Shown in pieces: positions 7,001-49,037 of a DNA stretch of 49,037 nt. The DNA lies in IMG/VR virus record IMGVR_UViG_3300047554_000187, positions 1-49,037 of that record; one strand, given 5' to 3'. This stretch comes from a virus. The notes below the pieces were generated by a model. It had not been told where the DNA came from. It saw nothing but the letters and a program-made list of their open reading frames with translations, and made no database searches. Each line of letters opens with the position of its first letter. Within the stretch, counting starts at the first letter, position 1. Position numbers and translations under genes: made by a program.

Positions 7001-9775
7001 AATAGCTCTAGTAGCAATACCACTTCTTACAAAGCTTAAATTGTTAGATGCATCTACGTTGACATGCCAAATTTGAGTACCTGTTTTTTGTAAACCTATA
7101 CTGCCATTTACAGTTAAAGTTTCTCCTGGACTTGTAGTACCAACACCTACGTTACCAGCAGGAGATAAATACATTGTAGCAGCAGGGGCAGTATTAGCAG
7201 CAGATGTTAAAAATCTAATGGCTCCGCCACCTGTAGCATCTCCACTTGATATAATATCAAATACTCTAGTATAATTATTGCTTGCAGGAAAATTTTGTGC
7301 CTGATAGAAATATGTTATACCCTTATCTTGATTTGAAGTATATGTTACTACAGATGTTTGATTACCTGTGTTAGGGTATTGCATTTGCCCAGTACTAGTA
7401 ATACGCTTACGTTCGTTATTACCAGCAATCATTACCATTGCATTAGTTTCACTTCGTAATCTTACATTCCCTGCAGTTGTATTAGTATCTTTAAGCCATA
7501 TATCTGCTTTTGTTGCTGCACTAGAGAATAGTGCTATATCTCCATTTGCAGAAGAATCATAAACTTCAAGTTTTACAGATGAACTAGGCGAAGTAGTTCC
7601 GATTCCTACGTTGCCACCTTGAATGGTCATTCTGATATTTCCAGTAGTTGACTCCTTAAAATAAAGAGCACTTTCTCCTGATGAAGGAATTATTTGCCAA
7701 GCACCACCACCTCTATTTACATTTAAATCAGTTGCCGTAACACTACTTGAGAACGTGGCTGCTCCTGTGGATGACATTGAAAATACATTAGACCCTCCAC
7801 CATTTACTCTAAAATTAATCCCTTGTCCTGTTGCAGCGTTTAAGTATAATCCATCAGATGCATCATTTGCAGCAAAAATTCTATTATATCCATTTGAATT
7901 GCCACCAAATGCAAATGTTCTATATGCTCCACCAAATGTTGTATCTGTTCCAATTATAGTTCCATTTATTGCAACATTACCTGTAAATCTGCCTGTGCCA
8001 TTTACATCAAGTTTATAGCCTGAGTCTGTGGTAGTACCCAAAAGAGTATTACCTGTAAGAACCATTGTGTTTCCTAAATGGTCAATAAGGAACCTATCAG
8101 CTAGAACGCCAGCAGAGCCTTCTCCTCTAGTTGCAATTCTAAAGTAACCTCTGGCTTCTCCGTCTGGAGAAGAGTTTACTAGACCGTTATAGTACCCTGT
8201 ATAGCCAATTCTAGCGTGAGGGTATGACCCTACTACAGAATTGGCATCTATAGTTACAAAGTCAATGTCTACAGTTCCGTCAACACCTAAGTCTGAACCA
8301 TAATTAGTAAGCAACAAAGCTGTACTCTGAGAATTTCTAGCATCTCCTGGATTAACTGTATTAGTATTAATACGCACAAAACCAGATGGACCTGTGTATA
8401 AACTATTGGCAGCTGTACCAAAAGTTGCTCCTAAGCTAGAGGAATTTCCTCTTGTTAAGATGCTAGATAATGTATCTGTTTCAGTATATGATGTTAAATA
8501 AGTAGAGCTATCTACCGAGCCATCCGCTTTTAAGAATTGCGCTGATGTACCACCTGATTTAATAAAGGATACAGCCGTAACATTGCCAGAACCAGAAAAT
8601 CTAACTCGCTCTACAGGTGCGGCTCCAGCCACATCATTTAATGAGAACACAAGGTCCATATTAGTTGATGTGCGAACAGCATCAATAAATACTTTACCTC
8701 CGTTAGTATTATTAAACGGGTCAGAAGTTGCTGCGGCTACTAAACGAACCGTAGTACCCACTGTAGTATCTAGATTCATTGCACGAATTGCTTCGAATAT
8801 ACCAGCAGCAGATGTTTTCATTAAATGAACAGAACCATCTGCAAGTCTTGCCTCTGATGAAGTATAAGTAGATGTATTAACTGTACCTCCGTTTACTGCT
8901 AAATTGCTAGTAAATTCAGAATTCCCAGTCGTATAAATCTTAAATCTTCCAACAGAGTTTGTTACATCATATACTGTAAACGTGCCATCTGTGTTAGAGA
9001 TGAAATAGTCTGGGTTATTGTCTGTATCTGTAAAGTATAAGCGAGGGTTGGTTCCTGATAGAGTTAAATCTCCTGTAAGTGTACCGCCTACTAAAGGCAA
9101 GTAATTTGCCCCATTAGCTGGAGTATATCCTAATGCCGCTGCAATAGTTTTATTCTTCCAAAGGCTAGTAGCTGATTCCCAGACAAGAGTGTGGTTATTT
9201 GCTAAAGAAGAGATAGATACATCGTGGATTTCATCTAGTTCATATCCATTCTGAATCTTAACCTCAATCTGTCCTAAAGTCGGATGCGAGCGAGTCACAA
9301 TGCCAACGTAAACTAAGTGCGCAGGAGCTAATTGCTTTGTAGAAGTATATGTTCCAGCAGTTGTAGATGAAAGATATAATTGTACACCTTCCGTAAAAGT
9401 AGAAGTATCTAAGCCAGTTATATCGCCTACACAAACTACATTTCCATTTGAGTTATTGGCAATATCAGTTTGACACAAACCAAAAGTTTGAGCAGAAGTA
9501 GAATCTCCTGTCGCAATCGCTTTGGAAACAGTAGCTTTATTGCCAGTAGCTCCAGAGATATATACAACCGTACCTTTTGTTAACGTAGCACCAGTTGTAT
9601 TTCTTACTTCTCTAATTAATGTACCAGCAACAGCAGTTACGTTAGGGGCGTTATAATCAGTACCCGCAACAGCAGCAACCAATTTACCGTTAGCATCAGT
9701 TTTAAGTAAAGAAGAGGTTACACTCGTCTGGGAGATATAACCTGTTACATCTGCGTTTTTTAAAAACTTAGTCAT
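4007..9775 (-). CDS. Giant tail fibre with C-terminal intramolecular chaperone (peptidase S74), 1922 aa
   Basis: This very long Gly/Ser/Thr/Asn-rich protein contains repeated fibre segments such as LPLAGGTMTGLL, LPLVGGTLTGDL and LPLSGGTMSGAI, typical of trimeric phage fibres. The last 104 residues form an S74 chaperone: SDVRIKTDIKTL (S1819 as nucleophile candidate), IGVIAQETQAVLPEVV and a coiled-coil end (QSHIESQQLEIEELKGLVKQ). In known members the domain drives trimerisation and then cuts itself off just before the Ser. The final 24 residues fit the coiled coil. The frame is intact throughout. It should be the main receptor-binding or enzymatic fibre. No depolymerase motif was recognised in the body. 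Confidence 0.92.
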   Translation of the reverse strand: MTKFLKNADVTGYISQTSVTSSLLKTDANGKLVAAVAGTDYNAPNVTAVAGTLIREVRNTTGATLTKGTVVYISGATGNKATVSKAIATGDSTSAQTFGLCQTDIANNSNGNVVCVGDITGLDTSTFTEGVQLYLSSTTAGTYTSTKQLAPAHLVYVGIVTRSHPTLGQIEVKIQNGYELDEIHDVSISSLANNHTLVWESATSLWKNKTIAAALGYTPANGANYLPLVGGTLTGDLTLSGTNPRLYFTDTDNNPDYFISNTDGTFTVYDVTNSVGRFKIYTTGNSEFTSNLAVNGGTVNTSTYTSSEARLADGSVHLMKTSAAGIFEAIRAMNLDTTVGTTVRLVAAATSDPFNNTNGGKVFIDAVRTSTNMDLVFSLNDVAGAAPVERVRFSGSGNVTAVSFIKSGGTSAQFLKADGSVDSSTYLTSYTETDTLSSILTRGNSSSLGATFGTAANSLYTGPSGFVRINTNTVNPGDARNSQSTALLLTNYGSDLGVDGTVDIDFVTIDANSVVGSYPHARIGYTGYYNGLVNSSPDGEARGYFRIATRGEGSAGVLADRFLIDHLGNTMVLTGNTLLGTTTDSGYKLDVNGTGRFTGNVAINGTIIGTDTTFGGAYRTFAFGGNSNGYNRIFAANDASDGLYLNAATGQGINFRVNGGGSNVFSMSSTGAATFSSSVTATDLNVNRGGGAWQIIPSSGESALYFKESTTGNIRMTIQGGNVGIGTTSPSSSVKLEVYDSSANGDIALFSSAATKADIWLKDTNTTAGNVRLRSETNAMVMIAGNNERKRITSTGQMQYPNTGNQTSVVTYTSNQDKGITYFYQAQNFPASNNYTRVFDIISSGDATGGGAIRFLTSAANTAPAATMYLSPAGNVGVGTTSPGETLTVNGSIGLQKTGTQIWHVNVDASNNLSFVRSGIATRAIITSDGQLKLNTYQTATSWSGTAAGYLAFDSSGNVITVGSVASTDSTKLPLAGGTMTGLLAFSNVTGNKIDFYHTTTSPGDRYGIQVQNSELRIHSGAGGDASGGITFGKSTTTTFTEVMRVRNDGIVNIAGLLRTSGATSNTVLFNSGASSETFGNILGAASTYRSTMFRGSTTNSSVWWGGVDANGANIPFAAIDATAGEFAFWRNSGGTGGGGWTKIMTMNDSGLTMNSGNFVGNIIGQWSGLNFNGTTTRFTGDVNTLGLSGTSGIYNLGVATNAPSTYGTLLGFWNTDISTQVYFSYNGNAYWRPSSSTSYSGVAWRTIWDSVSLTNLNQLTNGPGYITGYTETDTFGTVVSRGSTASTGTSYGVTITHTYSQTSLFHNTLFLKANNSGAELGASIGFSVVNAGGDHHRAVIRATGVSNGVGGQFAIYTRRNSDAENIRGYYQDDVGNVRLDNYVGVGQDPNTGYRFIVSGSMYLNANGNGWAEGTFKQRRGGSTFYDVLDTASYSSYALPLSGGTMSGAITNTSASSRFGNLLIGQGTYKNSIQPIDDVNMNLSTPSGAVYVSNTLYINGTNVALHAGNYTSYSSFSGLSASGFLSATGGSKIVVQNGSNGGSDRGIFMWTSSDPNWAIYMATGGTTSIAGGTTCNALDGSGSHSLRSRIYLGASNSFIWENSAEVCLMSLGADVAGNGLFVKRRIRNNGGYTLSGDFGFYTSYTSDGLWGGTATPNSIGTTSNGGRLILGYQDNGNGLYSPAYGFEVRSTDGRPVGGQVVRAIVMKDVDTGAQPFIVYNNGGIYSANNIQASKFLVNGDSWIVFNNEEGAWGIKTRTTTNTGNLGAALKNIFYCGGGSNEGFAVMGSGTGNASFEVKNDGTAWIKGSLTAGGDVTAYSDVRIKTDIKTLTNALNTVISLRGVSYKRTDNGDAATKIGVIAQETQAVLPEVVQEQPDGMLSVSYGNMAGIFIEAIKEQQSHIESQQLEIEELKGLVKQLLAK

Positions 9776-9778
9776 CTA

Positions 9779-10990
9779 TTATTTTTTAATAACTACTCTG
9801 TAAGCGTTTAAAGCTGGAGCTGCTGCAAATGATACAGTAACTACCGAAGTCGAAGTAAGAACCACATCAGTGATTACTTCCTCGTAAGTTGTATTGTCAT
9901 AGATTGAAACTACAACGTCTCTTGTTGCAAGACCGTGAGTCAATGCAAATGAAGTAGCAGAAGCATCTCCTACGTTAGCAGCGTATCCACCTGTGCGGTT
10001 ATCTAATAAGGTCTTTAATTTTAAAGGGGTGACGATTGTAGTATCATCAGTTCCTGTATTAGTCTCTGTTTGCGTTGCAATCTCAGCAATACCAGAACGA
10101 GTCTCAGTAGCAGTGCGACCTGCTAAAGTGGCAGGAGTAACAGCATCTGTTGTGTTAGTTCCTGTGTTAACTTCTGTTTGTGTAGCAAGAGTTACTAAGC
10201 CTAAAGTAGACTCAGTAGCTTGGTCACGATTAACCTCTAAAGACAACCAGTTGCCTGCGTAAGTTGTAGTTGAAGCGGCATCTACTAACGCAACTAAAAC
10301 GTCTCCTACATTGAATGCAACCGAGTTTACTGTACCAGCAACACTAACATACCAATAATCGCCCTTCTTAGTTCCAGCTACAGGAGCAGAGCCAACAGGG
10401 AATGAGCCAGCTGATGCATCCCAAGCGCCTTCAAGGTTTCCTAGTCCACCAGTTGCAGCATCAACATAAGCTTTGATTGCAGCAGTAGAAGGGATATTTG
10501 AATTAGCAGAACCTGTTAAGTCAGTAGCTGTGACAATAGAAATCTCAGCAACGTTAGCAGTTGCTCCAGATACGTTACCTAATACTTTGTTGTTAGCAAC
10601 CTGCTGAATCTTAGCATAAGTAACTTGGTTGTCTCCTAATTTAACTGTAGTTACTGCACCGTTATTAAGCTTTGCGGTAGTAATCCCAAGGTCTTTAACA
10701 CGAATAGCATCGGTGCTAATCTCAATTGTGGCATTATCTACATTAATATCAAGAGTTACAACGTCACTTGCCGTCGAAGCAGTTAAACCCGCTCCGCCTA
10801 TAACGTCCTGGATATCTCCAGACATATCTGTCCAAGCAGAACCGTCCCAGAAATACATTCTAAGGTCAGTAGTATTAAAATACACCTGTCCTGCTACAGG
10901 AGAAGATGGAGCTGATGATAGATTCTGAATCGCGACGTTTAATATCTGATTCTTGGTTAAATCTAAACTGGTTAAAAACTTCTTTGCCAT
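9779..10990 (-). CDS. Tail fibre protein with phage fibre repeats, 403 aa
   Basis: The N-terminus (LPSSP-type segment GQVYFNTTDLRMYFWDGSAW, residues about 35-54) is the short 'product-display' motif seen in many phage fibres. Residues about 265-335 carry two phage_fiber_2-like repeats (ESTLGLVTLATQTEVNTG and TRSGIAEIATQTETNTG, each followed by VTP and LA/LK). The C-terminal 70 residues are a beta domain (SFALTHGLATRDVVVSIYD) also found at the end of the 411-aa neighbour (WTINHDLNKYPAVSIVD). The two proteins thus share a terminal module. Probably a structural fibre joining the tail to the giant fibre. Confidence 0.8.
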   Translation of the reverse strand: MAKKFLTSLDLTKNQILNVAIQNLSSAPSSPVAGQVYFNTTDLRMYFWDGSAWTDMSGDIQDVIGGAGLTASTASDVVTLDINVDNATIEISTDAIRVKDLGITTAKLNNGAVTTVKLGDNQVTYAKIQQVANNKVLGNVSGATANVAEISIVTATDLTGSANSNIPSTAAIKAYVDAATGGLGNLEGAWDASAGSFPVGSAPVAGTKKGDYWYVSVAGTVNSVAFNVGDVLVALVDAASTTTYAGNWLSLEVNRDQATESTLGLVTLATQTEVNTGTNTTDAVTPATLAGRTATETRSGIAEIATQTETNTGTDDTTIVTPLKLKTLLDNRTGGYAANVGDASATSFALTHGLATRDVVVSIYDNTTYEEVITDVVLTSTSVVTVSFAAAPALNAYRVVIKK

Positions 10991-18039: not shown

Positions 18040-20049
18040 TTAAAATGGGAATATCTCCCTTATATCGTATATTTTCTGTTTTTGCTCTACTCTTTCACTA
18101 AACTTAGACTTGTTAGCCTGTATTAACGTGTAACCAGATGCCATCGCGGCATCAAACTTGGTTGTCTTGTTAATATCAAACTTTAACCAGTCTTGCAATA
18201 ATCGCATAAAGATAACCTTTTCTACGTTCTCTGTAATATAACTTTCTGTCACTTCTGCAATCTGCTGGTGAGTCTTAACTGTTGCAGAGATTCCATACTT
18301 CGTCGCGCCAGGTAATTTTACTAAAAATTTCTCATAGCCCCTGTACTCAAAGTACTTAATCAATCCAACCTTGTTATCCTCGGACAGTATCTCGCATCCA
18401 AAGAAGTGACAAAGCTTAATCATATCCTCGTAGAATATCTCAGCCTTCTCAGGTCTGTTAAGATACTCAACTAAGAACGTCTCGCTAAACTCATCTAGCG
18501 CATCATATCTTCTGTACACATAACACGCACCATCTGACCGCTCCTTACTTGTCGTAATGCTATGGTCGAAGGGGTCAACTGCTATTGCGTACTTCTTTCC
18601 TTGCTTAGGTACCTTCTTAGTACCGTACTCCTCTACTTGGTTAAAGTTAGCGTAGTCGTAGATGTTAAGTTTCTTATGAACTAAGAACTTTCCATTGGAT
18701 GTCTCGTTAAAGACAACCCTACTGTCACGCTCTGCTTTTTCCCAAACAAATTCTCCACGCAAATATAAATCTTTTTCAGCAATCCACGATATGGATTCCA
18801 TCTGTCTGTTTAATGCCATTGCATCGTACAAACAAGTGTCTGCTTCGCTAAAGAATGCCTCCCCAATAGTAAAAGGGTTCTTACGGATAAAGGAAGCTAA
18901 TGCGCGAGGGTCTGACTCCAAAGCAGCACGTTCTGCCATATAGAATTCTTTTGCCTTCTCTTCGTCGGCTTGACCAAACTTGTCGTAAAACAACGTCTTA
19001 TAAGCAGGCATAAAGTATTGGTATAATCCTGAGCGAGTTCTGCCGTTGGCATTCTTCTCATTCTGGTTAGATGCGTCCCATAACATCTTGAATGACTCGC
19101 CGCCATCCTCCATTTCCTCGACGGTGGTGGTGTATAGTGCCTTACCGATAATGTTCTCTTCTTGTTGAAGACAGAACTGCAAGACCTGATGTCTATCGTA
19201 GACGTCCACGTTCTTAGTCTTACCTGCCTCATCGCCTAGGTAGCGATGTAGCTTCATACCGTCATAAGCAAACTTATCAGCCGATTTAAAAGTAATAGAT
19301 GATTCAAGCTCAATCTTTTCAGCAAAAATGTCGTCAGTTGCACCTCGTTTATTTGTTTTGAAAAATCTTAGTTCTCCTTTAGGGGTCATACCCTTTTCAG
19401 TATCGTATATAGGGACAAAGAAGTCGGGCAAGTACTTGAATGGCATAATAACGCCCTTAGCAAATACGTTCTCTTTTGCGTCCTCAAATGTCTTTGATTG
19501 AATACCTGCATTCTTGTTCTTGCTTCGAGATGTTAACTCGAATAAGAAAGCACCTGCTCGCATAGTCTTTCCCTGACGACGTTTAGTAACCTCAACCATT
19601 CCCAGGCAGTTAGGGTCTTGTACGCAGTACTCCAGGAACATAAAGAAGTCCCTATCTGTCATCCTGAAGGATGGATAGCCCACGTCAAGTTTCCAGTGCA
19701 CTAAATAAAAATAGTGTAGACCAGTAATATATGTCGCGTGACCGTTGTTATAAAACCAGAATCCGTTAAGGCGTCTGTCCCATTCTTGGTTGCGGTATTC
19801 CTGTAGCTCAGGATTGAAGTATCCAGGATTAGTCTTCTGGGTAGCAATCTCTTTCTTGCGCTTTGTCTCGTAGTCTTTAGGAGGTTCTGGTCTTTCCCAG
19901 TATTGGTAGTCCTTCTTAACAGAGCGAGACATTATCTCGCGTTTCTCCCATTGGTTAGTTATAATGTTATAGACGTAACCATTTGGCGGGATGTTAACCG
20001 TTATACCGTTTATCTCGTAGTCTTTTCCTTTAGGATGCTTTCTATACAT
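18040..20049 (-). CDS. terL: Terminase large subunit, 669 aa
   Basis: This is the ATPase-nuclease that packages DNA into the prohead. Walker A candidate TKRRQGKT lies at 155-162, Walker B candidate YLGDE at 270-274, and the RNase H-like nuclease shows AIAVDPFDHS (D492) and EILSEDN (E556, D558 region). The N-terminal 90 residues are a basic, aromatic extension. The variant Walker A with RRQG recalls terminases of crAss-like and related Bacteroidota phages. It overlaps the upstream gene by 8 bases and is followed by portal. Circular permutation of the genome, inferred from the ends, would fit headful packaging by this enzyme. Confidence 0.93.
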   Translation of the reverse strand: MYRKHPKGKDYEINGITVNIPPNGYVYNIITNQWEKREIMSRSVKKDYQYWERPEPPKDYETKRKKEIATQKTNPGYFNPELQEYRNQEWDRRLNGFWFYNNGHATYITGLHYFYLVHWKLDVGYPSFRMTDRDFFMFLEYCVQDPNCLGMVEVTKRRQGKTMRAGAFLFELTSRSKNKNAGIQSKTFEDAKENVFAKGVIMPFKYLPDFFVPIYDTEKGMTPKGELRFFKTNKRGATDDIFAEKIELESSITFKSADKFAYDGMKLHRYLGDEAGKTKNVDVYDRHQVLQFCLQQEENIIGKALYTTTVEEMEDGGESFKMLWDASNQNEKNANGRTRSGLYQYFMPAYKTLFYDKFGQADEEKAKEFYMAERAALESDPRALASFIRKNPFTIGEAFFSEADTCLYDAMALNRQMESISWIAEKDLYLRGEFVWEKAERDSRVVFNETSNGKFLVHKKLNIYDYANFNQVEEYGTKKVPKQGKKYAIAVDPFDHSITTSKERSDGACYVYRRYDALDEFSETFLVEYLNRPEKAEIFYEDMIKLCHFFGCEILSEDNKVGLIKYFEYRGYEKFLVKLPGATKYGISATVKTHQQIAEVTESYITENVEKVIFMRLLQDWLKFDINKTTKFDAAMASGYTLIQANKSKFSERVEQKQKIYDIREIFPF

Positions 20050-20602
20050 TTGCTATTGCTTCGGGCGTTAGGTTTAGAATCTCACTCTTCTTCTCTTTAG
20101 TGTCGCCAAAGAGTTTGTCTTCGTAAGCTTCAATACGTTTAATGATGGCATCGCACTCAGCCATTAGCTTCGACTTAATCTCAAGCGCTTGCAGTTTATC
20201 CTTATCAGTCTTGTATGCTGTGATAGGAGATAGCAACTCGCCTTGATACTGCCACAATACCTCCTCGTTAGCGGCTAGTATTGACCACACCTTAGACGAT
20301 TGATAGCGTAGGTAGGAGTTTATATAGGCAAGGATACTATTGTCCTTTAAATCAAAGATATCAGATGCATCCCAATTGATGCCAGCCATCTCAGCAGCCT
20401 CCTCCTTACGCTCCTGTATATTAGATATCTTTAATCGCAGTGGACTCTTCTGGTCGTATATCAGTGCAACGTAAATAAGAATCGGGATTTCCGAAGCGGG
20501 TACGTTCCCAAATACCTGTTTGATAATTGGATTTTTTGCAAGGTTGCTATCATAGATAGGTATTGCTAAGTCTGCGAAATCTTCTTTGTTGAATAATGCC
20601 AT
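20042..20602 (-). CDS. Protein upstream of terL, possible small terminase, 186 aa
   Basis: I start this at ATG 20602 (MALFNKEDFADLAIPIYDS). An upstream TTG at 20653 would add an Arg-rich stretch and is less likely. The protein is soluble and helical, with a C-terminal charged coiled coil (ECDAIIKRIEAYEDKLFGDT). Its place directly before terL, with 8-base overlap, is where the small terminase normally lies, but no helix-turn-helix motif is clear. Families with this layout are common in Bacteroidota phages. Function remains a guess from position. Confidence 0.65.
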   Translation of the reverse strand: MALFNKEDFADLAIPIYDSNLAKNPIIKQVFGNVPASEIPILIYVALIYDQKSPLRLKISNIQERKEEAAEMAGINWDASDIFDLKDNSILAYINSYLRYQSSKVWSILAANEEVLWQYQGELLSPITAYKTDKDKLQALEIKSKLMAECDAIIKRIEAYEDKLFGDTKEKKSEILNLTPEAIANV

Positions 20603-20720
20603 AATATCTTGGCGGGCGGCGCGGCGTCCCAACCTTTTTTCTTTTTGTATCAATTAAGAGAAGCAAGCTTCTTCTTTTTGTTGCAATATTGGATAGCCTT
20701 TAGGCTCCGCAAAATAGTAT

Positions 20721-20843
20721 TTATTAAATCTATTTATTATACTATATATTATACTGCTACTGTAGTAGCATACCCCTGCCCCTGTAGTAGCATACCCCCT
20801 GCTACCAGAGTAGCATACCCCCTGCCCCTACAGTAGCATAGGG
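20721..20843. repeat. Iteron-like array with adjacent AT-rich stretch (candidate origin or initiator-binding site)
   Basis: GTAGCATA starts at 20765, 20787, 20810 and 20833, a spacing of 22-23 bases (about two helix turns). The first three copies continue as GTAGCATACCCC. Two palindromes TGCTAC-N4-GTAGCA lie at 20755-20770 and 20800-20815. Immediately left is a run of almost pure A/T (about 20715-20753). Repeats spaced by whole helix turns beside an AT-rich stretch are the usual form of a replication origin. The same palindrome (N4 = CACA) occurs inside the initiator gene at 29673-29688. It falls between the GroES-like gene and the terL upstream gene, where no gene is seen. Confidence 0.7.
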
Positions 20844-20846
20844 TAC

Positions 20847-21491
20847 CTAGTATTTTGTAGATAAAATGTCGCTTTGACGCACTGTATAGTACTCTTTGCC
20901 TTCAATCTTGTTTACAAAATTTGAGTTTTTGTTCAACAAAACCAATGAGCCAGTGCTTACCTCCAACTCATTTTCCCCTACTAACGGTTTACCAATATGT
21001 GAAAGTCTAGCAAACTTAGTTGATGGCTTCTTGTTGATACCAATTACTAGTCCTGACGCTGATGTTATAGCTTCAATCTTTTGACCATTAACTTCAACGT
21101 GATTAAACTCTTCTTCAACCACCGTTTCACACAAAGTCCAGCCGCCAACAGGCAATATATTACCACTCCTAACGACACAAAATACCCAATAATAAGGTAC
21201 TTTATAATAGTTCCCGTAGATACAGTTCGTTTCATCAGATGTAGTTAAGTAATGGAAGTATACAAGGTCACCTACCTGCACGTCTTTCTCTATCTCAGCA
21301 CCTTCTTCGTTGTAAGCCTTTCCGTCTGGTACAGCTATTACACGACCATAAATTCTAGCGTAATGTGTAGGATTAAATTCTGGGTCTATGTGGAGCTTTA
21401 AATTACCGTATTCAACAGTGTCATCCATTGTAGCACCGACCTCAATCACAACCGTGTTTGGTGGCGATTTCTTAATATCGTAAGTAAGCAT
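20847..21491 (-). CDS. GroES-like (chaperonin-10 fold) protein, 214 aa
   Basis: The C-terminal 50 residues match the GroES pattern: GKPLVGENELEVSTGSLVLL, then NKIEGKEYYTVRQSDIL, the usual end 'K...G.EY.xVR..DIL'. The N-terminal half has a second, related-looking part (ARIYGRVIAVPDGKAYNEEG, then VQVGDLVYFHYLTT), giving a protein about twice as long as a bacterial GroES (near 97 aa). Phage co-chaperonins (for example T4 gp31) work with host GroEL to fold the capsid protein. As the first late gene, right after the main late promoter, it is well placed for that. The match was read by eye. Confidence 0.7.
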   Translation of the reverse strand: MLTYDIKKSPPNTVVIEVGATMDDTVEYGNLKLHIDPEFNPTHYARIYGRVIAVPDGKAYNEEGAEIEKDVQVGDLVYFHYLTTSDETNCIYGNYYKVPYYWVFCVVRSGNILPVGGWTLCETVVEEEFNHVEVNGQKIEAITSASGLVIGINKKPSTKFARLSHIGKPLVGENELEVSTGSLVLLNKNSNFVNKIEGKEYYTVRQSDILSTKY

Positions 21492-21518
21492 TAATAATGT
21501 TTGTTTGGTTTGTAAAGG

Positions 21519-21549
21519 TAAAGATAGATAGATATTACCATATTGTCAA
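21519..21549 (-). promoter_or_regulatory. Main late promoter (minus strand)
   Basis: On the minus strand TTG (21549-21547), 20 bases, then TATCTTTA (21526-21519), one base from TAnnTTTG. The leader that follows has AACCAAACA and reaches ATG 21491. The spacer holds GGTAATAT (21539-21532), a half-site of the palindromes at 21747 and 22107, so a repressor could cover this promoter. Confidence 0.65.
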
Positions 21550-21746
21550 TTTTATGCAGCGCGTAGTTGTTTGTAGAGGGTTATATATATCAGCGGCGGG
21601 GTCAGCGAGTCAAGCGACAAACGCCTTTTTTGAAGCGGGTGGGGTCATTTTGCTGAATTAGAAATCCAAAAATAGGGTCGCAGAGAGTCATTCTTATAGT
21701 ATAGGTTTCCAAAGGTTACCTTACCCATAGTATCCCTGTTAGCATC

Positions 21747-29140: not shown

Positions 29141-29359
29141 ATGGACACACAACCAACAAGCGAGGAACTAGAGTTGATGTGCTATCGGGCGATACTTGAC
29201 CTCAGAAAGGTACGGCTTCAACAAGAGATTAAAGATTATTCTCAGTTGTTTAAGTACGCTTCGCCTGAGATGTCATCATACCCTAAGCTAGTTAAGATAG
29301 TAGATGGGATGGTGCGCGACCTAAGCGCAATAAACGAAGAGTTAACAAAGGCAATATGA
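29141..29359 (+). CDS. Small protein upstream of the initiator, 72 aa
   Basis: Helical, charged (LDLRKVRLQQEIKDYSQLFK, ELELMCYRAI). ATG 29141 lies directly after the T-tract of the attenuator; a frame start at 29093 would be inside the hairpin. The stop overlaps the initiator ATG by 4 bases, so the two are probably translated together. It could be a regulator or replication accessory. Confidence 0.65.
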   Translation: MDTQPTSEELELMCYRAILDLRKVRLQQEIKDYSQLFKYASPEMSSYPKLVKIVDGMVRDLSAINEELTKAI

Positions 29360-30003
29360 ATTTTATAATAATCCCTTATGATTTATTGGCGCGAACAGAC
29401 TTGACCGCATCAGAAAAAAATCTGATGGGATTAATTCATAGTTTGTCGGCTAAGGAGGGATACTGCTTTGCAAGCAATACCTACCTAGCAAGCGTGTTAG
29501 GATTAACTGCATCGGGAATAAGAAAGTGTTTACATAACCTTGAATCACTTAATCTTATTACAAGAACTTTAAAGTATAAGAGCAACAATGAGGTTGAATC
29601 TAGAGAGATAAAGCTAGTAACCCCTATGCTACTAGAGGGGCATACCCCTATGCTACTACAAGGGCATACCTCTGCTACCACAGTAGCACATAATAAAGAG
29701 ATTAATAAAAAAGAAAACAATAACTCTATTGAACGCTTCGAAGAGTTTTGGAATATCTACAACAAGAAGGTAGGTAAAGAGAAGACAAAAGCTAAGTGGG
29801 CTAAGCTAAAGGATAAGGAGGTAGATGCTATATTTAAGGCGCTACCTAGTTACATAGCTAGTAGAGAGGTGAAGTATAGAAAAGACCCCGAAAGATACCT
29901 TACTCATAGGGTGTGGGAGGATGAAATGCCGAGCGAAACTCCTTTAACAATTCCACTATCAGCAACCAAGATTACCGAAATCATTATCCCAGACAATTTT
30001 TAA
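29356..30003 (+). CDS. Replication initiator, lambda-O/DnaD-like, with iterons inside the gene, 215 aa
   Basis: Residues 1-85 form a winged-helix DNA-binding domain of the replication-protein type (IIPYDLLARTDLTASEKNLM, then NTYLASVLGLTASGIRKCLH as the recognition region). A low-complexity linker follows (about 88-120), including octapeptide repeats TPMLLEGH and TPMLLQGH encoded by 24-bp repeats. The C-terminal part (RFEEFWNIYNKKVGKEKTKA, onward to YLTHRVWEDE) is the common phage domain that recruits helicase or loader. The DnaB gene follows after 2 bases. Layout and internal repeats are the same as in lambda O, whose gene contains the origin. Confidence 0.85.
   Translation: MNFIIIPYDLLARTDLTASEKNLMGLIHSLSAKEGYCFASNTYLASVLGLTASGIRKCLHNLESLNLITRTLKYKSNNEVESREIKLVTPMLLEGHTPMLLQGHTSATTVAHNKEINKKENNNSIERFEEFWNIYNKKVGKEKTKAKWAKLKDKEVDAIFKALPSYIASREVKYRKDPERYLTHRVWEDEMPSETPLTIPLSATKITEIIIPDNF
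29621..29690. repeat. Intragenic iteron-like repeats (candidate replication origin)
   Basis: A 24-bp unit containing CCCCTATGCTACTA and GGGCATACC occurs at 29621 and again at 29645, with a partial third unit at 29662. It ends in the palindrome TGCTAC-CACA-GTAGCA (29673-29688). Eight bases, TATGCTAC, are the reverse complement of the GTAGCATA core at 20.76-20.84 kb; 17 of 19 bases match between 29672-29690 and 20799-20817. A/T-rich sequence follows (29691-29735), as in the lambda origin. Being 24 bp long, the repeats keep the reading frame. Confidence 0.7.
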
Positions 30004-30005
30004 AA

Positions 30006-31427
30006 ATGGCAAGAATATACGACCAACTATTAGAGGCTGACATCATTGCCTATCTTTTAGACAAACCACACTTAGTTAAGGATGCGGTCAAAATTATTAG
30101 TGAGACGGCGTTTACTTATGACCTCCACAAAGACGCATACTTAACGATGAGAGAGTTTTATTTAAACAATAAGTCATACACTCGTTTTGATATTTTTAAG
30201 CCCATTAGCGATAGTTCTCGCTTCTTAGCGGATGAGCCTCCTAAGCTACTTACAATGACACCTAAGACGACAATTGAGTTGACCTCAGCGTGTCAAGAAC
30301 TAAAGAGCCTTGAGCAAAAGAGGATTTATCAGTCGATTGCGAATGAATTAGATAAAGCAATAACGCACGACGAAGACGTAACAATTCTTCAGAGCATCAT
30401 TGAGCAAGGGTCAACCTTAATTGAGACAAATTCGAATAGTTCAGAAATCTATTCCCTATCAGATGTCTATGACAATGTAATGAACAAGCTAGAAGTCAAC
30501 GCGGGCAACGTAAAGTTTTCAGGTATTGACACTGGCTCTCGTAAGTTAAACTATGCACTAGGTGGATGGCAAGAAGGAATGATTGTCGTGGCGGCTAGAC
30601 CATCAATGGGTAAGACTATTGTCGGCTTAGACTTTGCGAAGTCATCTGCCAAGTCAGGCAAACGTGTGCTATTCTTATCCTTAGAGATGCCGAAGGAATC
30701 TTTATTGTATCGTTATATTTCATCTGAAGCCCCTGAGTATAAGTATTCAGACATCAAAGCTAATCGCATCACCCAAGAAGACGTAGCTAAGATTAGAATA
30801 TCTAACGCAAGAGAACTTAAGCGGTTGCCTATATTCTTTTATGACTCTGACAATCGGGATATCAACTACCTATCAATGGTGCTGACAACTGAGTGTCGTA
30901 AGAACAAGATAGACATTGTGGTAATTGACTATATGCAATTAATTAGAGACAATCAGATGCGAGGTCAAGATGATTTCTCTCAAGTATCATCTGTATCCAA
31001 CAAGATACAAAAGCTAACAAGGAAGTTAAACATTCCAATCATTTGCCTTAGCCAGTTATCGCGTGGTGCTGAGGGTAGGAGTGACAAGCGTCCTCAGTTA
31101 TCTGATATCAGAAGTTCGGGTAATATCGAGCAAGATGCCTCTGTTGTTATTGGATTGTATAGACCATACTACTATGCACAAGCGGATGCTAGGGCTAACA
31201 ACTTGCCAGTACCCGATAACGACTACACGCTAGAGTTTATATTACTAAAGAATAGAGATGGTATGACGGGTGGTATCGTTAGATACTGCGACGTGACTAC
31301 GAATAGAATCGCTGATGAGGAGGAGGAATTGTTTAGATTCACGGCTATTGAGCCAGCCTACAAGAACTCTGTATTATCTAAGATGGAAGTTGATTTTGAT
31401 AACGATGTAAAAATAGACCCTTTTTAA
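30006..31427 (+). CDS. dnaB: Replicative DNA helicase (DnaB family), 473 aa
   Basis: The N-terminal domain (1-110) is helical as in DnaB. The RecA-like motor has Walker A ARPSMGKT (197-204), the LSLEMPKE motif (about 225-232), Walker B IDIVVIDYMQL, LSQLSRGAEGR and the Arg-finger region (LLKNRDGMTGG). It moves 5' to 3' on the lagging strand as a hexamer and unwinds the fork. Length is normal. It forms an operon with the initiator and follows it by 2 bases. No separate primase gene was recognised in the window, so the phage may use host primase. Confidence 0.93.
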   Translation: MARIYDQLLEADIIAYLLDKPHLVKDAVKIISETAFTYDLHKDAYLTMREFYLNNKSYTRFDIFKPISDSSRFLADEPPKLLTMTPKTTIELTSACQELKSLEQKRIYQSIANELDKAITHDEDVTILQSIIEQGSTLIETNSNSSEIYSLSDVYDNVMNKLEVNAGNVKFSGIDTGSRKLNYALGGWQEGMIVVAARPSMGKTIVGLDFAKSSAKSGKRVLFLSLEMPKESLLYRYISSEAPEYKYSDIKANRITQEDVAKIRISNARELKRLPIFFYDSDNRDINYLSMVLTTECRKNKIDIVVIDYMQLIRDNQMRGQDDFSQVSSVSNKIQKLTRKLNIPIICLSQLSRGAEGRSDKRPQLSDIRSSGNIEQDASVVIGLYRPYYYAQADARANNLPVPDNDYTLEFILLKNRDGMTGGIVRYCDVTTNRIADEEEELFRFTAIEPAYKNSVLSKMEVDFDNDVKIDPF

Positions 31428-31428
31428 T

Positions 31429-31824
31429 ATGGCTTGGATAGAAATTAAAACTAAAGAAGATGTACTCCCTATTATTGCAGAGTACAAAGAATACAGGATG
31501 GAAATGAGAGAAGAGATAAAGGAATTAGAAGATGATGATTCTAAGTACGCAGACAATAGAACGGGAAGGCTTCACTCTAATACGTTTAGGCTAAATAAAA
31601 TGAGTGGATTTCTAAAGAGCAATAAAATAGATGCTTTATTGGATAAAGGATTTGCCCTTAAGTTCAATGGAGTTATGCTAAACATTGACACTAAAAATGA
31701 TTTTTGGGGAGATTTTAATTATTACCCTAAGTCAGGTAAAATGTATGCAAAAAATTGGAAGATGTGGTACAATAATTCTTGGTTTTGGATACAAAAAAAA
31801 TTAATCAACAACGACAGGTTATGA
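31429..31824 (+). CDS. Protein of unknown function in replication operon, 131 aa
   Basis: A charged, helical N-terminal half (EYKEYRMEMREEIKELEDDD) and an aromatic Lys-rich C-terminal half (FNYYPKSGKMYAKNWKMWYN). It lies one base after the helicase gene and overlaps the nuclease gene by 4 bases (ATGA). No family was recognised. Confidence 0.6.
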   Translation: MAWIEIKTKEDVLPIIAEYKEYRMEMREEIKELEDDDSKYADNRTGRLHSNTFRLNKMSGFLKSNKIDALLDKGFALKFNGVMLNIDTKNDFWGDFNYYPKSGKMYAKNWKMWYNNSWFWIQKKLINNDRL

Positions 31825-32585
31825 ATATATACCAAGAACTTAAGAAGTTTTCACATATCAAATACTACGATGAGCCTCATAAGTATTTCATAGGAGAGCA
31901 AGAGTTAGTATCAGGTACGGGATTCCTCAAGCTATTTAAGCCTGAGTTTAATGCTAAGGTAATGGCTGAGAAATCAGCTAAGAAGTTAGGTGTTCCTGTT
32001 GAGGACGTCCTTTCCGATTGGGATTACAAACGAGAGTTCGCGGGGATGAAGGGAACATTAGTCCACAACTTCGCGGAGAACTACTGGTTCAATAAGATAT
32101 TCCCTTACAATTCACAAATTGTAATAGATAAGTTCGGCGAAGACCATATCAAAGAGCGATACGATGTATGCGTTCAGATGTTCCTTGACTTCTATCGTGA
32201 CGCCTCCCCCGCCCTAACGCCTATCACAATGGAGTTAGTTATTGGGGATGCGGAACTCGGGGTAGGGGGTATGGTGGATTGTTTGTTCTATAATGAGAAA
32301 CTTCAGGAGTATCAGATATGGGACTACAAGACCAACAAACAGATACGAATGAAGTCGGAGTATCGCAAGCGTTTCAAAGCACCTATCTCTTTTATAGAGG
32401 AGTGTGAGTACGAGTTGTATTCGCTTCAGTTAAACCTATACAAGTACATCATAGAAAAGAATACCAATATCAAGATTGGTAGATTGTACTTAGTGTGGTT
32501 GTTCGAAGAGAATGAATCGTATCAAGTAATTGAATGTAAGGATTACCAATCAACAATAGAGTTAATGTTTAAACACAAGAAATAA
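31821..32585 (+). CDS. PD-(D/E)XK nuclease, RecB/Cas4-like exonuclease, 254 aa
   Basis: The core motifs are GMKGTLVHNFAENYW (about 75-89, helix with H), GGMVDCLFYN (D near 155), IWDYKTNK (the (D/E)XK Lys) and a QLNLYKY helix (YSLQLNLYKYIIE), which together are typical of RecB-type phage exonucleases. It should trim or degrade double-stranded DNA and often works with a recombinase. No obvious RecT or Erf homologue was seen. ATG 31821 gives an ATGA overlap and is preferred to a start at 31779. Confidence 0.82.
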   Translation: MNIYQELKKFSHIKYYDEPHKYFIGEQELVSGTGFLKLFKPEFNAKVMAEKSAKKLGVPVEDVLSDWDYKREFAGMKGTLVHNFAENYWFNKIFPYNSQIVIDKFGEDHIKERYDVCVQMFLDFYRDASPALTPITMELVIGDAELGVGGMVDCLFYNEKLQEYQIWDYKTNKQIRMKSEYRKRFKAPISFIEECEYELYSLQLNLYKYIIEKNTNIKIGRLYLVWLFEENESYQVIECKDYQSTIELMFKHKK

Positions 32586-38151: not shown

Positions 38152-38859
38152 ATGGCACGTTCAGATGCTTACGCAAACACAGTACAATCACCAGTTAAGA
38201 AGTACCTTTCTTGGTCTTCTAATGAGAAATGTTTCACTTACTGGGACAAAGAGGCAAAGGAGAATAAGAAACTCCCATTACCTATCAAGTTTATTCACTA
38301 CGATGAGATGTCTACTATCAAGGGATGGCACGATGCATCTGGTTCAGGTATTTACTCTAATGAAGTAAAGAATACTAAGGCAGAACCTCTATCGGTTCGT
38401 GCGTTTAAGGGAGGCGAAATCGCTTCAGGCTTATACCAAGATATCAAAGGTAAAGTTAACTCAGCAGGAGGCGACTATTACGTTAGCTTGTACGCTGAAT
38501 TAGGTGGTGAAGTAGTTAACTTCTCATTCAAAGGCGCGGCTTTAATGAAATGGTCTGAGTTCTCTAAGGAGAATCGCAAGCAGTTCTTAGGTAACTACAT
38601 CAATGTTCTTTCAGCATCAGATGAGAAGAAAGGTTCTGTTAAGTATAGCGTACCTGTATTCACTATTGGAAACAACATTGATGCTTCTGTTAGCGAATTG
38701 TCTGATAAGAATTACGACAACTTAGTTGACTACTTTAAATCGCGCAAGGCAAACTCAGCTTCTTCTGCTGAAGAGGTTCAGAGCCACACCGCTGAGGCTA
38801 TCTTTGCGCCACAAGAACCAGTAGCTACATTTGATACATCAAGCGACTTACCTTTCTAA
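38152..38859 (+). CDS. ssb: Single-stranded DNA-binding protein, 235 aa
   Basis: An OB-fold-like beta region covers residues about 70-175 (SGLYQDIKGKVNSAGGDYYV, FKGAALMKWSEFSKENRKQF). A low-complexity linker (SASSAEEVQSHTAEA) leads to the acidic tip DTSSDLPF, the hallmark of proteins that use the SSB tail to recruit partners. It coats single-stranded phage DNA during replication and recombination. Longer than a bacterial SSB (about 178 aa), as in several Bacteroidota phages. The leader has AACCAAACA. Confidence 0.8.
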   Translation: MARSDAYANTVQSPVKKYLSWSSNEKCFTYWDKEAKENKKLPLPIKFIHYDEMSTIKGWHDASGSGIYSNEVKNTKAEPLSVRAFKGGEIASGLYQDIKGKVNSAGGDYYVSLYAELGGEVVNFSFKGAALMKWSEFSKENRKQFLGNYINVLSASDEKKGSVKYSVPVFTIGNNIDASVSELSDKNYDNLVDYFKSRKANSASSAEEVQSHTAEAIFAPQEPVATFDTSSDLPF

Positions 38860-39465: not shown

Positions 39466-39670
39466 GACTGAACTGGGTATGACTCAGGCAGTATTTGCTA
39501 GAGAGGCGGGATTCAATACCGTCCAGCAGATATCAGGACTAGAAAATAACCAACGAGGCATAGGATTCAATCTCCTAGGTAAGATGGTTAGAAACTTGTC
39601 CGCCAATGGTCACCCAATTAATCTCGACGTCAACTTAACCGTTGGAGAGAAGACACTAAGAATCCACTAA
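39440..39670 (+). CDS. Helix-turn-helix (XRE-like) regulator, 76 aa
   Basis: Residues 8-60 form a classic HTH_3 domain: IRTELGMTQAVFAREAGFNT, then VQQISGLENNQRGIGFNLLG. It probably represses or activates phage genes. Candidate sites are the inverted repeats at 28997 and 21747, but no direct link is visible. The short C-terminal tail (LDVNLTVGEKTL) could dimerise. Confidence 0.8.
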   Translation: MINIIKEIRTELGMTQAVFAREAGFNTVQQISGLENNQRGIGFNLLGKMVRNLSANGHPINLDVNLTVGEKTLRIH

Positions 39671-40071
39671 TGGTAATAGACGAAGAGATTGCAACAATTC
39701 AAATAGAATGGGAAGGGGTTGACCTGTCTCTTAACAAATGGTACGCGAACAGACACTGGTCGTTCCGTAACAAAGAGAAAGAGTTCTGGGCTAACCTCTT
39801 CCTTAAATTGCTTCCTAAGCGCACAAAAAAGATAGACAAGTATATTATCACAATGTACTTCAATAGTCGCTTAGACGCCAGCAATACCGTGCCTATGATT
39901 AAGATTCTAGAGGATACTATGAAGAAAGCTCACTACATTGTAGATGACTCCAAAAAATTCTGCAAAGGTATCCAAATTTACCCAGATGAAAGCCTAGGTA
40001 AGAAGCATTACAAGTTAACAGTTCACATCCTATCCTATGCAACCAAAGAAACTAAAGCTTATCGCGCCTGA
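39670..40071 (+). CDS. RusA-like Holliday junction resolvase, 133 aa
   Basis: The pattern LSLNKWYANRHWSFRNKEKE (substrate loop), SRLDASNTVPMIKILEDTMK (the D-x-x-N region) and HYIVDDSKKFCKGIQIY (the DD of the active site) follows RusA-type endodeoxyribonucleases, which cut branched phage DNA. The usual 'D.DN' reads 'D.SN' here, a conservative variation. Starts TAATG and overlaps the next gene by 35 bases. Confidence 0.65.
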   Translation: MVIDEEIATIQIEWEGVDLSLNKWYANRHWSFRNKEKEFWANLFLKLLPKRTKKIDKYIITMYFNSRLDASNTVPMIKILEDTMKKAHYIVDDSKKFCKGIQIYPDESLGKKHYKLTVHILSYATKETKAYRA

Positions 40072-46500: not shown

Positions 46501-49037
46501 AATGTCGGCAACAATGAAATCTCTGACATCCTTTGGAACTACGTTCAATACGTTTAAAGAAACGATTCCGTCAAACATCCCTTTGATATCCTCCGACTTA
46601 GTATAGTTAACTTCTTTTCTACCCTTCCATCTTTCTGGATTAATCTCATATGACTCAACATCCTTAGTAAGAACGTCGCTCATCGCATCCGTACCCAATC
46701 CAAGTCCAGCACCATAGTCTAAAATTCTGCCACCAACATTTAATCCCTTTAAGATATTAGCAGCCTTAGCATAACTTCCTACAGTAGTAGCAACTTGTGT
46801 AGTTCCTGATGCCTTAGAAAGCTCCTTATCAATAGCCTGAGACTTAGACTTAGTAGCGCTAATCTTGCCAGACGCGCTGCTTAATTTAGCAGTTCTGTTG
46901 TATTGCGCAACGGCAATAGTTTCTTTTTTATGCTTATCTAAGTAGTCATTCCAAGTAAACTCTTTTCCACTTGACTGAGTAAGAGTAGGCACAACGTCTT
47001 TCATTGCGTAAGCTCCGTCTAATATAGCAACCTCTATCTTAGCAGGACTTCCATCTGGATTTACCGCATATATTTCTACAGGATAAGACTTGTGATAGAA
47101 GCTGTCATCTGGGCTAGTTGTCTTATATTTAAGCTCACCCTTTGTTCTCATTACTGTAACAAGGTCTCCGATATTTTCTGCCTTACTAGTAATTGGCTCT
47201 TCAAATCTTTTAGCTGTTTCAGTGATAGAGCCAGCTGAAGGAAACCTTCTTTCTTTTACTTTAGGGTCTCCAAGCAATGTTTCTACAATAGTTTTTCTCT
47301 CTTCAAATGAAAAGTTAGATATAGGCTTCTTGTCTGCGCCTAATATAGGATTACCATTGTTGTCTAAAACATTGTTTCCTTCTTGGAATAAAATATACTC
47401 AAGCTCATTAAACAGCGTTGTTATACTGTTCGACTTATTTAATACATTTTTTAATACAGGCTTTTTATTCTTAACTCCTTCGCGGTCAAATGCTTTATTT
47501 AAAGAGTCAATAATGTCTTGCTTTTTAACTTTTGAAGAACGGCTGTTAGCATCTGACTTCATTAATTCAACAGTAACTGCAAGCATATCAGTGTTACTCA
47601 TATGTTGCTTATCTGAACCAACCATAGGTGCAGAATAAACATATCCGTCAGCATCTCTATTTTTATTTGCACTTTCTGCAATAGACTTTGCCTTAGACTC
47701 ATTTCTTGAAGCCCACCACTTACCAGTAATTATTGGGAAATAAACTCCTCCATAAAACTTATATAATGGATTGCCTTCAGTGTTCTCAATGTATCCTCCA
47801 ATCATTCTATCGGATTCCATTAAGTTTACTGTTTTATTATTAAATTCAGAAAGAGGCACATTCTCTATAACAGATGCATTTTCGTTTACAGGGAATCTCT
47901 TAATTTCCCCTGAGCTAATTGAGCTTTTTGAACGAGTTGCATTTTCAGCATTTATGTTTCCAGATAAACCTAATGAGTTTATTCCTGCTGTTTCTTGAAT
48001 TTTAGAGATAGTCTCTTCGCTCACACCAGTTCCTTGTCTTATCGACTCAGAAATAGTGTTCATAAAGTCTATAATATCCTTTGTATCCTTAGTGTCTTGG
48101 AATACAGTTATAGCACCATTTGTAAGATTAGAAACAACCTCGTTAATCACAGAAGCTATTCTTTGTATTGTAGTTGGCGCTATGCTTTTTTCTTGTTGCT
48201 CTAATATACCTGTTAACTCAGTAACATATTCTTCATAAGAAGCTTCTTCACTGTATTGTTGTATAAAATCAGACAACTCCTTATTAGTGTCTCCGTCTAC
48301 AGCCTTAGCAAGCTTATCTTTGAAGCTTTTAAACACAGCTGGATTATCACCAAATGCTCTTAACAATATAGCGTGAGCCACCTCGTGAGCGACTGTTCTT
48401 CCATTAGCTTTTGTAAGGTTTATATCAATCTTACCTGAATAGCTCCCATCTTCATTTTGGTCATAAGAAAAATTACCTCGGCTTCCTTCAATCCCGTTAA
48501 CATTCTTCATCTCCTCATTATAACTAGCTTCGTCATTATGAATAACGATGTCAAAATTAGGAAGGACAGATTTTAATGTTTGCAATGCTGCTTTCGCAGA
48601 TTTAAGTATTTTTATCTTATTGTTACTTTCATTATCTATAACTTGAGCATTCTCATCTAGAGAAGGCAAAGGAATATCCATTGTAGATATTGATTGACCT
48701 TTTGAAGGTTGCTGATTTTGTTGTTCAGCCTGCGGAGCTTGTTCTGGAGCTACCTCTCTTGTATAAGTTTCTCCTTGACCAAAGTCATTGTCAAAAGCGT
48801 TTTCAATTAAAGATAATGCCTCATTCTTTGTCGATGCTGGTAATATTCTATCAGTTACCTTATTTCTAACGTACCACCTTCCATCTGTTCCATTCTGTTC
48901 TAATCCAGCCTTTCCGCCCCTATTGTCGACTACTTCAAAGTCTCCCTTCCATTCCTTTTTGTTTTCAGGAGCTGTTTCATAAACAAACTCTTCTGTTTTA
49001 TTAGGAGCTTTTGCAGGAGATGGCTGTGGCGCAGGAG
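43534..49037 (-). CDS. Large polyvalent protein: zinc metallopeptidase, methyltransferase and C-terminal phage domain (runs off the right end)
   Basis: The frame stays open to base 49,037, and on a circular molecule it continues in phase from base 1, giving 1892 residues. In that numbering, zincin motif VAHEVAHAILL has HEVAH at 276-280. An uncharacterised part (about 440-680) follows. A Rossmann-type methyltransferase occupies about 817-992, with GGRILDYGAGLGLGTD (motif I, from 827), ESYEINPER (acidic loop) and FDGIVSLNVLNVVP (motif IV-like). The C-terminal third is helical, with a hydrophobic stretch (WGVMSVAMMAGLARAF), similar in style to LPD38-type ends of large polyvalent proteins. Such proteins are thought to be ejected with DNA to counter host defences. 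Its late position agrees with packaging into the virion. Confidence 0.75.
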   Translation of the reverse strand, partial: PAPQPSPAKAPNKTEEFVYETAPENKKEWKGDFEVVDNRGGKAGLEQNGTDGRWYVRNKVTDRILPASTKNEALSLIENAFDNDFGQGETYTREVAPEQAPQAEQQNQQPSKGQSISTMDIPLPSLDENAQVIDNESNNKIKILKSAKAALQTLKSVLPNFDIVIHNDEASYNEEMKNVNGIEGSRGNFSYDQNEDGSYSGKIDINLTKANGRTVAHEVAHAILLRAFGDNPAVFKSFKDKLAKAVDGDTNKELSDFIQQYSEEASYEEYVTELTGILEQQEKSIAPTTIQRIASVINEVVSNLTNGAITVFQDTKDTKDIIDFMNTISESIRQGTGVSEETISKIQETAGINSLGLSGNINAENATRSKSSISSGEIKRFPVNENASVIENVPLSEFNNKTVNLMESDRMIGGYIENTEGNPLYKFYGGVYFPIITGKWWASRNESKAKSIAESANKNRDADGYVYSAPMVGSDKQHMSNTDMLAVTVELMKSDANSRSSKVKKQDIIDSLNKAFDREGVKNKKPVLKNVLNKSNSITTLFNELEYILFQEGNNVLDNNGNPILGADKKPISNFSFEERKTIVETLLGDPKVKERRFPSAGSITETAKRFEEPITSKAENIGDLVTVMRTKGELKYKTTSPDDSFYHKSYPVEIYAVNPDGSPAKIEVAILDGAYAMKDVVPTLTQSSGKEFTWNDYLDKHKKETIAVAQYNRTAKLSSASGKISATKSKSQAIDKELSKASGTTQVATTVGSYAKAANILKGLNVGGRILDYGAGLGLGTDAMSDVLTKDVESYEINPERWKGRKEVNYTKSEDIKGMFDGIVSLNVLNVVPKDVRDFIVADIFAHLNENGTAVISSRKFAGDIDGAKNFELGPEPKSYIIKRKQDGKIIDVFQKGYDGNELVEYVKGILGDNATVEKNNSFGAAGVIITKTTGTKSKSQTSNPYKMDTMFENPDEMFSHLADQLSDEKTAKEMGFVMKGYRNASEAIADNMITRSLAKGLGAGFGGIRKVGNATLVKVNTKDKNGNPISKELSLNSVWKDAIGYTEDAIKGLFVKAQNSNNVAAKELQHFTETFVTNLTTSEEFQKARRELFGGKNNSNNLLTQIGERMNNMIGNDTRALYRVHSLLDPEAFAKEPQEGLPKNVEDLSFNELRLFNYLRATNDFIHEWHYRNGFLDQNTYEKNKGKYFARTYRQIEEKQYGDIYDAIKKSKAGAEFNMFRKRKDFDKIHDSLSLSDPIYITIKRMGMMAHNKAIFDFAQKVSNDPNYKSYSKLSEVPEKNQKYYKKLNGNGNPKRFGDLTNKYVPLQIYEQLYGTQFVTEFMSRVDDISTKYDNMFLRQFTKKLKTVGSPLTRAANVISGYFFSMMGGVDPITLFTRKPDARKSLDTYDTWAQELSKAGLLGGQLSGLDIKKASKESQGLNIIRGVIGDKGAQAYETVDKLLSDTYGKVDDITKIAYYRTLVENYGLTKEEAIDMTAKQMQNYNTVPNGFKLAAKLPIIGNAFIKFKPDSMRILYNSFKERPIWGVMSVAMMAGLARAFSKASGESDEEREARENRPYTTKLKVGDLDVSFGWKIGNNEYNVARYLSPYSMYDKGYKGNLISDMSEYTPLQVQYLGKGNGVFGSGYMPKFSDPLSGPIAQAAFNIDNSGLRIDDPRASRFNSQTVSSKQRWFNSVNHVMRSWGTPYAAWAESMMDAFNEKSNYKGQINNPLNAMLSIAVKNEEINPDILVDKYSRYLNTMDYEVGDIINSWKAKEKKSLQEIDNTRYLYDTGKIKSEANKDARIKEIQDEYSDLAIELQGRMLEIVGESQEPQEMIKKLQELKAKTIKKK

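Follow-up and report, generated by a model that had tools for sequence, protein, structure and literature searches.

Two arrays of matching palindromic repeats, one inside the gene for an O-like replication initiator and the other beside the terminase genes, are best read as two origin-like sites bound by that initiator, in a layout like oriL and oriR of phage SPP1 and with an in-gene site that resembles the lambda origin. The probability given to this reading is about 0.78, and both binding and origin activity are inferred. The repeats at the two sites match, they switch together from phage to phage, the distal array depends on the initiator and not on the TerS-like or GroES-like neighbours, and the AT-rich tracts and the orientation are conserved. 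The window, meaning the whole stretch of DNA analysed, is the entire IMG/VR virus record IMGVR_UViG_3300047554_000187 (49,037 bases).

Iteron arrays of the window phage

The in-gene array has three units of 22-24 bp (29620-29689), each with a 16-bp palindrome (29627-29688). The palindromes are TGCTACTAGAGGGGCA (29627-29642), TGCTACTACAAGGGCA (29651-29666) and TGCTACCACAGTAGCA (29673-29688). The distal array has four units of 22-23 bp (20754-20844) with the same palindrome arms (20755-20838), namely TGCTACTGTAGTAGCA (20755-20770), TGCCCCTGTAGTAGCA (20777-20792), TGCTACCAGAGTAGCA (20800-20815) and TGCCCCTACAGTAGCA (20823-20838). It lies 8.9 kb from the in-gene array and is inverted relative to the initiator gene. 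The sequence-only reading of this DNA had picked out TGCTAC-CACA-GTAGCA inside the initiator gene, which occurs exactly at 29673-29688, and a match of 17/19 bases between 29672-29690 (CTGCTACCACAGTAGCACA) and 20799-20817 (CTGCTACCAGAGTAGCATA), which is real. Its remark that one array is coding and the other is not also holds, as the distal array is non-coding and falls between the GroES-like and TerS-like genes.

Exact TGCTACNNNNGTAGCA has three copies in the window (20755, 20800 and 29673), with about 0.002 expected from base composition. GTAGCATA has seven copies against 2.0 expected, a number reached in none of 100 shuffles, and six of the seven are inside the two arrays. A spacing variant of the palindrome with a 3-base loop is present in the window at chance level only. 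A lone one-mismatch copy, TCCTACAGTAGTAGCA, is found at 46777-46792 inside a gene for a 1715-aa protein, with no surrounding array.

AT-rich sequence adjoins both arrays, and there are no data on unwinding itself. The tract beside the in-gene iterons (29690-29725) is strand-asymmetric and is a candidate unwinding element; it is only moderately AT-extreme (rank 332). The tract beside the distal iterons (20715-20754) is conserved among phages with differing iterons and contains the 19th-lowest-GC 50-mer of the window, counted in overlapping windows. The G/C run between iterons is flipped in the window phage (20754-20844) and in phage R021 (L037 distal array, 9719-10001) relative to the rest of the clade, reading GGGG and not CCCC on the strand toward the AT tract, and the side of the AT tract is unchanged.

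Gene context and the predicted initiator

Leftward late genes start from about 21.5 kb of the window and rightward early genes from about 22.6 kb. The GC skew is lowest near 21-22 kb; the reversal there coincides with the gene-strand switch and is therefore given no weight as an origin indicator. The distal array is flanked on one side by the TerS-like gene (20042-20602, minus strand), which is directly upstream of the large terminase gene and is named by position only, as family searches (Pfam, PHROG) gave no match for it. The other flank is the GroES-like gene (20847-21491, minus strand), which encodes a 214-aa protein with the GroES (Cpn10) domain confined to its C-terminal third; this gene adjoins the distal array in all 30 phages compared below.

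The O-like initiator (29356-30003, plus strand, 215 aa) has PHROG 270 (replication initiation protein) as its best family (E 2e-25) and also matches Pfam HTH_36. PHROG 678, annotated as "replication initiation O-like", is a weaker match (E 2.7e-9). The gene for the DnaB-type replicative helicase, identified by family matches, follows directly on the same strand (30006-31427), with no separate helicase-loader gene between the two. The phage also encodes an exonuclease-family protein (31818-32585), a RusA-like resolvase (39670-40071) and a 235-aa protein of the unknown family PHROG 6706 (38152-38859) that ends in DLPF, like the tail of a single-strand-binding protein. It is possible that these three constitute a set for recombination-dependent replication.

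The AlphaFold2 model of the initiator has moderate confidence (pLDDT 68). It predicts a winged helix at about residues 8-87 with the wing at 68-87, a disordered linker at about 92-122, and a C-terminal helical domain at 124-190. The linker is encoded by the iterons and the AT-rich tract. The predicted recognition helix, residues 52-64 (29509-29547, plus strand), varies with the iteron class. The nearest solved folds include chains described as an initiator, a Rep-DNA complex and a DnaD N-terminal domain, and a profile search of solved structures gave no significant match.

Among cultured phages, those with the most similar large terminase are phages of Flavobacterium and Cellulophaga, all below 60% identity and the best at about 32%. 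A search of genome contigs with the initiator profile returned no relatives, so no host can be assigned from prophages. No DnaB-type helicase is listed in elemoA (NC_055852, positions 14000-61691), and the elemo phages were left out of later comparisons.

Matched arrays in 30 related phages

IMG/VR was scanned with the initiator, an initiator profile and the TerS-like protein, giving loci L001-L018 and L020-L065. The comparison set is the 30 IMG/VR phages in which both sites are visible, and an R name, such as R007, denotes the phage whose initiator or distal site sits in the locus of that number. An iteron array is present inside the initiator gene in all 30, and the in-gene and distal arrays are 7-9 kb apart. 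Arm sequence varies widely among the phages, and the two arrays match within each, with R021 as a partial exception. The iterons are TGATGC in L003, TGGTGT in L004, L007, L008, L010 and L011, TGGTAA in L015 and L017, GTCCC/GGGAC in L020, and GTGAGA/TCTCAC in L048-L051. The other repeats are TTCGAAAATCGAACG in L053, CTGACAGTCAG in L055, TTGGAAAATCCAA in L058 and L047, ATGCAAATGC in L052, and a tandem GTTCAACGACC in L044 and L045. Unit number, AT tract and orientation are conserved across the phages. The distal site repeats the full origin arrangement of iterons, CACATAAT-type junction and AT tract, with the tract on the matching side; the in-gene and distal sites have different loops and spacers. 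The distal array of R008 is one iteron shorter than that of R007.

When the initiator gene is locally aligned to the distal site, pairs from one phage score 32.4 and cross pairs 12.3, and the observed sum is not reached in any of 100,000 permutations. Own pairs still score higher once the initiators are dereplicated at identity thresholds of 95, 85 and 70% (leaving 24, 23 and 15 initiators, respectively), and also within the window's own clade. Searching the remainder of the locus for the initiator gene's best match leads to the distal array in 29 of the 30 phages. The sole exception, R015, arises because its AT-rich arms are hidden by the AT mask, and its match is not significant under AT-masked scoring. 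The in-gene match also beats synonymous-codon shuffles of the initiator (p<0.01 in 27/30); since synonymous reshuffling destroys the match, it is held at the DNA level. As grounds for excluding chance, the relatives far outweigh the counts in the window.

The initiators of the set include PHROG 270 and 2562 types, and array matching persists with initiators of other families in R044, R045 and R052 (Lin1244_N in R044). The GroES-like and TerS-like genes are separated by 0.5-1.1 kb in three more distant relatives by TerS (44-46%; L063, L064 and L065). In these three records a DnaB-type helicase was not matched, and an array between the two genes was not recognised by eye.

In R021 the recognition helix is of the R020 type, and the in-gene iterons are TGTCCC/GGGGCA against TGCTAC/GGGGCA at the distal site, so that one half-site is shared. 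This phage may have recombined recently, and it is possibly in transition from one specificity to another. An ORF that by eye resembles an HNH-type homing endonuclease lies between the initiator and helicase genes of this phage (L037/L021).

Switching of the distal array with the initiator

The window phage and L007 have TerS proteins that are 98% identical, GroES-like proteins at 93% and DnaB-type helicases at 94%; both arrays and initiator codons 31-120 differ. The difference is cassette-like at each site. The distal cassette (20753-20840) fails to align with L007, and its flanks (20611-20752 and 20841-21555) align at 86-89%, with a range of 86-93% given for the aligned DNA on the two sides overall. 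In the initiator gene the cassette spans about codons 31-120 (29446-29715, plus strand), which encode the recognition helix, the wing and the iteron-coded linker, with 56-80% nucleotide identity to L007. Identity to L007 is 98% over codons 1-30, 56-71% over codons 46-105, and 84-91% from codon 121 onward. Between the two sites, this pair has a patchwork of small genes, some shared and some not; exchange of the entire 9 kb in one linked event is therefore not the simple explanation, although not every pair was compared. The sister phages R015 and R020 have different arrays and TerS proteins that are 99% identical.

Across the set, distal-array similarity correlates with initiator identity (0.70), and the partial correlation with the initiator remains 0.63 after TerS and GroES similarity are removed (0/2000 permutations). 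For TerS, given the initiator, the partial correlation is only 0.16. On the GroES and TerS tree, at least 14 changes are required to explain the 13 iteron classes. Leaving the linker aside, initiator variation that goes with iteron class has a mean of 0.38 for residues 41-64, against 0.08 for residues 1-40 and 0.10 for residues 124-215; a small sample inflates these values, and the contrast is still clear.

The sequence-only reading had proposed a common DNA-binding protein for the two sites, most likely the 215-aa O-like protein. This is strongly supported at the sequence level, as the two sites change their arms together across the 30 phages and these changes go with changes in the recognition helix, and the matched switching is strong natural evidence that one protein must read both sites. 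The same reading held that a match lost in close relatives with a conserved protein would refute it. The literal TGCTAC is indeed lost in relatives with initiators 75-80% identical, but both sites move to the same new sequence, so that check would have misled.

Alternative explanations

The possibility that the palindromes are RNA hairpins, such as terminators or structured mRNA kept for their structure, is the least credible of those considered. Arms that stay complementary while their sequence changes would suit it, but nothing in a hairpin requires two far-apart sites of one phage to share their arm sequence, one copy is within a coding region, and the GTTCAACGACC repeats of R044 and R045 are tandem and not clean hairpins. 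A distal array that serves as a packaging-initiation site (cosB/pac-like) for the small terminase, its likeness to the initiator gene having some other cause, is also very improbable. The array does adjoin the terminase genes, and lambda cosB likewise adjoins the small terminase gene and carries repeats. Repeat specificity, however, follows the initiator and not the TerS-like gene, contrary to what such a site would predict, and the wholly different arrays beside near-identical TerS proteins, in the window and L007 and in R015 and R020, exclude TerS as the reader in practice.

Only slightly better placed, and still improbable, is a mobile or spreading repeat, either MITE-like or copied between the sites without selection. 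On one contig (L018, 4560-4800) the GroES-like gene is followed by an iteron array and then by the C-terminal half of the initiator gene, so that GroES-side sequence joins the in-gene array exactly at the repeats. This could be an inversion of the 9-kb segment between the inverted arrays or an assembly chimera at the repeats; the junction thus indicates that recombination between arrays, or chimeric assembly, does occur. Against a mobile element, each genome has the repeats at no more than two positions, which never vary, unit number and AT tract are conserved, and the arrays are not fresh copies, because loops and spacers differ between the sites. Spread is disfavoured as the sole cause, and copying may be the route by which the second site is updated.

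The main rival is that the distal array is an operator and not an origin. Binding of the initiator there would switch transcription of the late genes (terminase and structural) on or off, linking replication to late expression. The array is directly upstream of the TerS-like gene and the leftward late block, and its covariation with the in-gene array fits this as well, since shared iterons need only a shared binder. This explanation remains a real minority possibility and is not excluded. The conserved AT tract argues for replication, as does the repetition of the whole origin layout at the distal site, with iterons, junction and AT tract on the matching side, which is beyond what an operator needs, and the equivalent site in SPP1 has been described as a replication origin (PMC6316719).

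Proposed mechanism

If the two arrays are origin-like sites read by the initiator, its winged helix, probably dimeric, would bind the palindromic iterons of about 16 bp spaced at 22-24 bp; both binding and dimerisation are inferred. A cluster of three or four bound iterons may then strain the adjoining AT-rich tract, an inferred melting step, and the phage's own DnaB-type helicase would be loaded there. The first such site would be in the linker-coding part of the initiator gene and the second, inverted, beside the terminase genes. It is proposed that theta replication begins at one of the sites. The other would serve either as a second origin or as an initiator-bound barrier, as proposed for SPP1 oriR, that would provoke a switch to recombination-dependent concatemer synthesis for packaging. 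This division of labour is inferred, as are origin activity and any barrier function.

The second site has been kept matched at a distance of 7-9 kb through at least 14 specificity changes in about 30 phages, and must therefore matter to the phage. One tentative extension, held with well under even confidence, is that selection on the match is so strong that a change of specificity survives only when the distant array is rewritten as well, perhaps with one of the inverted arrays serving as template for the other. In that case the phages would be an evolving set of replication specificities that exclude one another, under pressure from competing phages, satellites or nucleases that target origins, and with a fixed two-site requirement for packageable DNA. 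The phage set is also a natural catalogue that links recognition-helix residues to iteron sequence, and a search of the rest of a genome for initiator-gene repeats offers a simple origin finder for uncultured phages.

Comparison with known systems

The two-site layout is already known from SPP1, the in-gene origin from lambda, and the swapping of initiator/origin modules from PLE satellites. In the open-licence literature searched, no account was found of phages that repeatedly switch a distant second site in step with their initiators, which here belong to several families. SPP1 has so far been the model for an origin within the initiator gene combined with a far second origin, and the role of the second rests on models.

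In SPP1, gp38 (G38P) binds repeats in its own gene (oriL) and intergenic repeats in the late region (oriR). Each of these sites has an AT-rich unwinding element, and sigma replication is proposed to be triggered by stalling at oriR (PMC6316719, PMC3485210). Like SPP1, the window phage has one site in the initiator gene and a second between genes of the late region (in SPP1 the two are about 12-13 kb apart), repeats with an AT-rich element at both, a DnaB-type helicase gene nearby, and exonuclease and resolvase genes, the kinds of enzyme used in the SPP1 sigma switch. A single initiator for both sites has been shown in SPP1 only. As a positive control, the same blind search for initiator-gene repeats was run on SPP1-like genomes. 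It returned late-region sites in three phages, with the best windows covering or adjoining intergenic gaps near 4.5-4.8, 5.3-5.5 and 40.9-41.0 kb; that these are oriR is inferred from the map of SPP1. In Geobacillus phage GBK2 the blind search gave no convincing second site.

The differences from SPP1 are several. Iterons in the window group are palindromic and mostly 22-24 bp apart, and the two sites are mutually inverted, whereas they are direct in the SPP1-like phages 049ML001 and 000TH010. The initiators are of PHROG 270 or 2562 types, with no helicase-loader gene between initiator and helicase. Pairwise BLASTP finds no similarity between the window initiator and G38P; PHROG 428 is matched by both (3e-12 and 1e-48, respectively). 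Repeated iteron switching in the window group is not seen among the aligned SPP1-like phages.

The four inverted-repeat iterons of lambda lie inside the O gene; dimers of the O protein bind them and open a 40-bp AT tract next to them (PMC5043065). The sequence-only reading had called the arrangement lambda-style. This fits the in-gene site, where near-palindromic iterons suited to initiator dimers stand beside an AT-rich, strand-asymmetric tract in the initiator gene, between the parts encoding two protein domains, as in lambda (PMC5043065, PMC4488673). It does not fit two sites with one initiator, which is the oriL/oriR layout of SPP1; the lambda ori as described is single and within O, whereas the window phage has the second array at 20755-20838. 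Lambda iterons are also 19 bp, and the O-like family is the weaker match of the window initiator, after PHROG 270.

The RepA_N initiators, including RepA of the V. cholerae PLE, share with the window group a winged-helix fold that is among the nearest solved structures, semi-palindromic iterons, and covariation of initiator and origin (PMC7145576, PMC8263062). In PLE satellites the initiator/origin modules covary and swap, and an origin-directed nuclease is thought to drive this (PMC8263062); in lambda, ectopic copies of the origin block the phage (PMC4488673). From these two cases it is inferred that competition is a plausible driver of switching here as well. A difference from the window group is that PLEs are described in that study with a single origin each, and no distant second site has to switch along with it.
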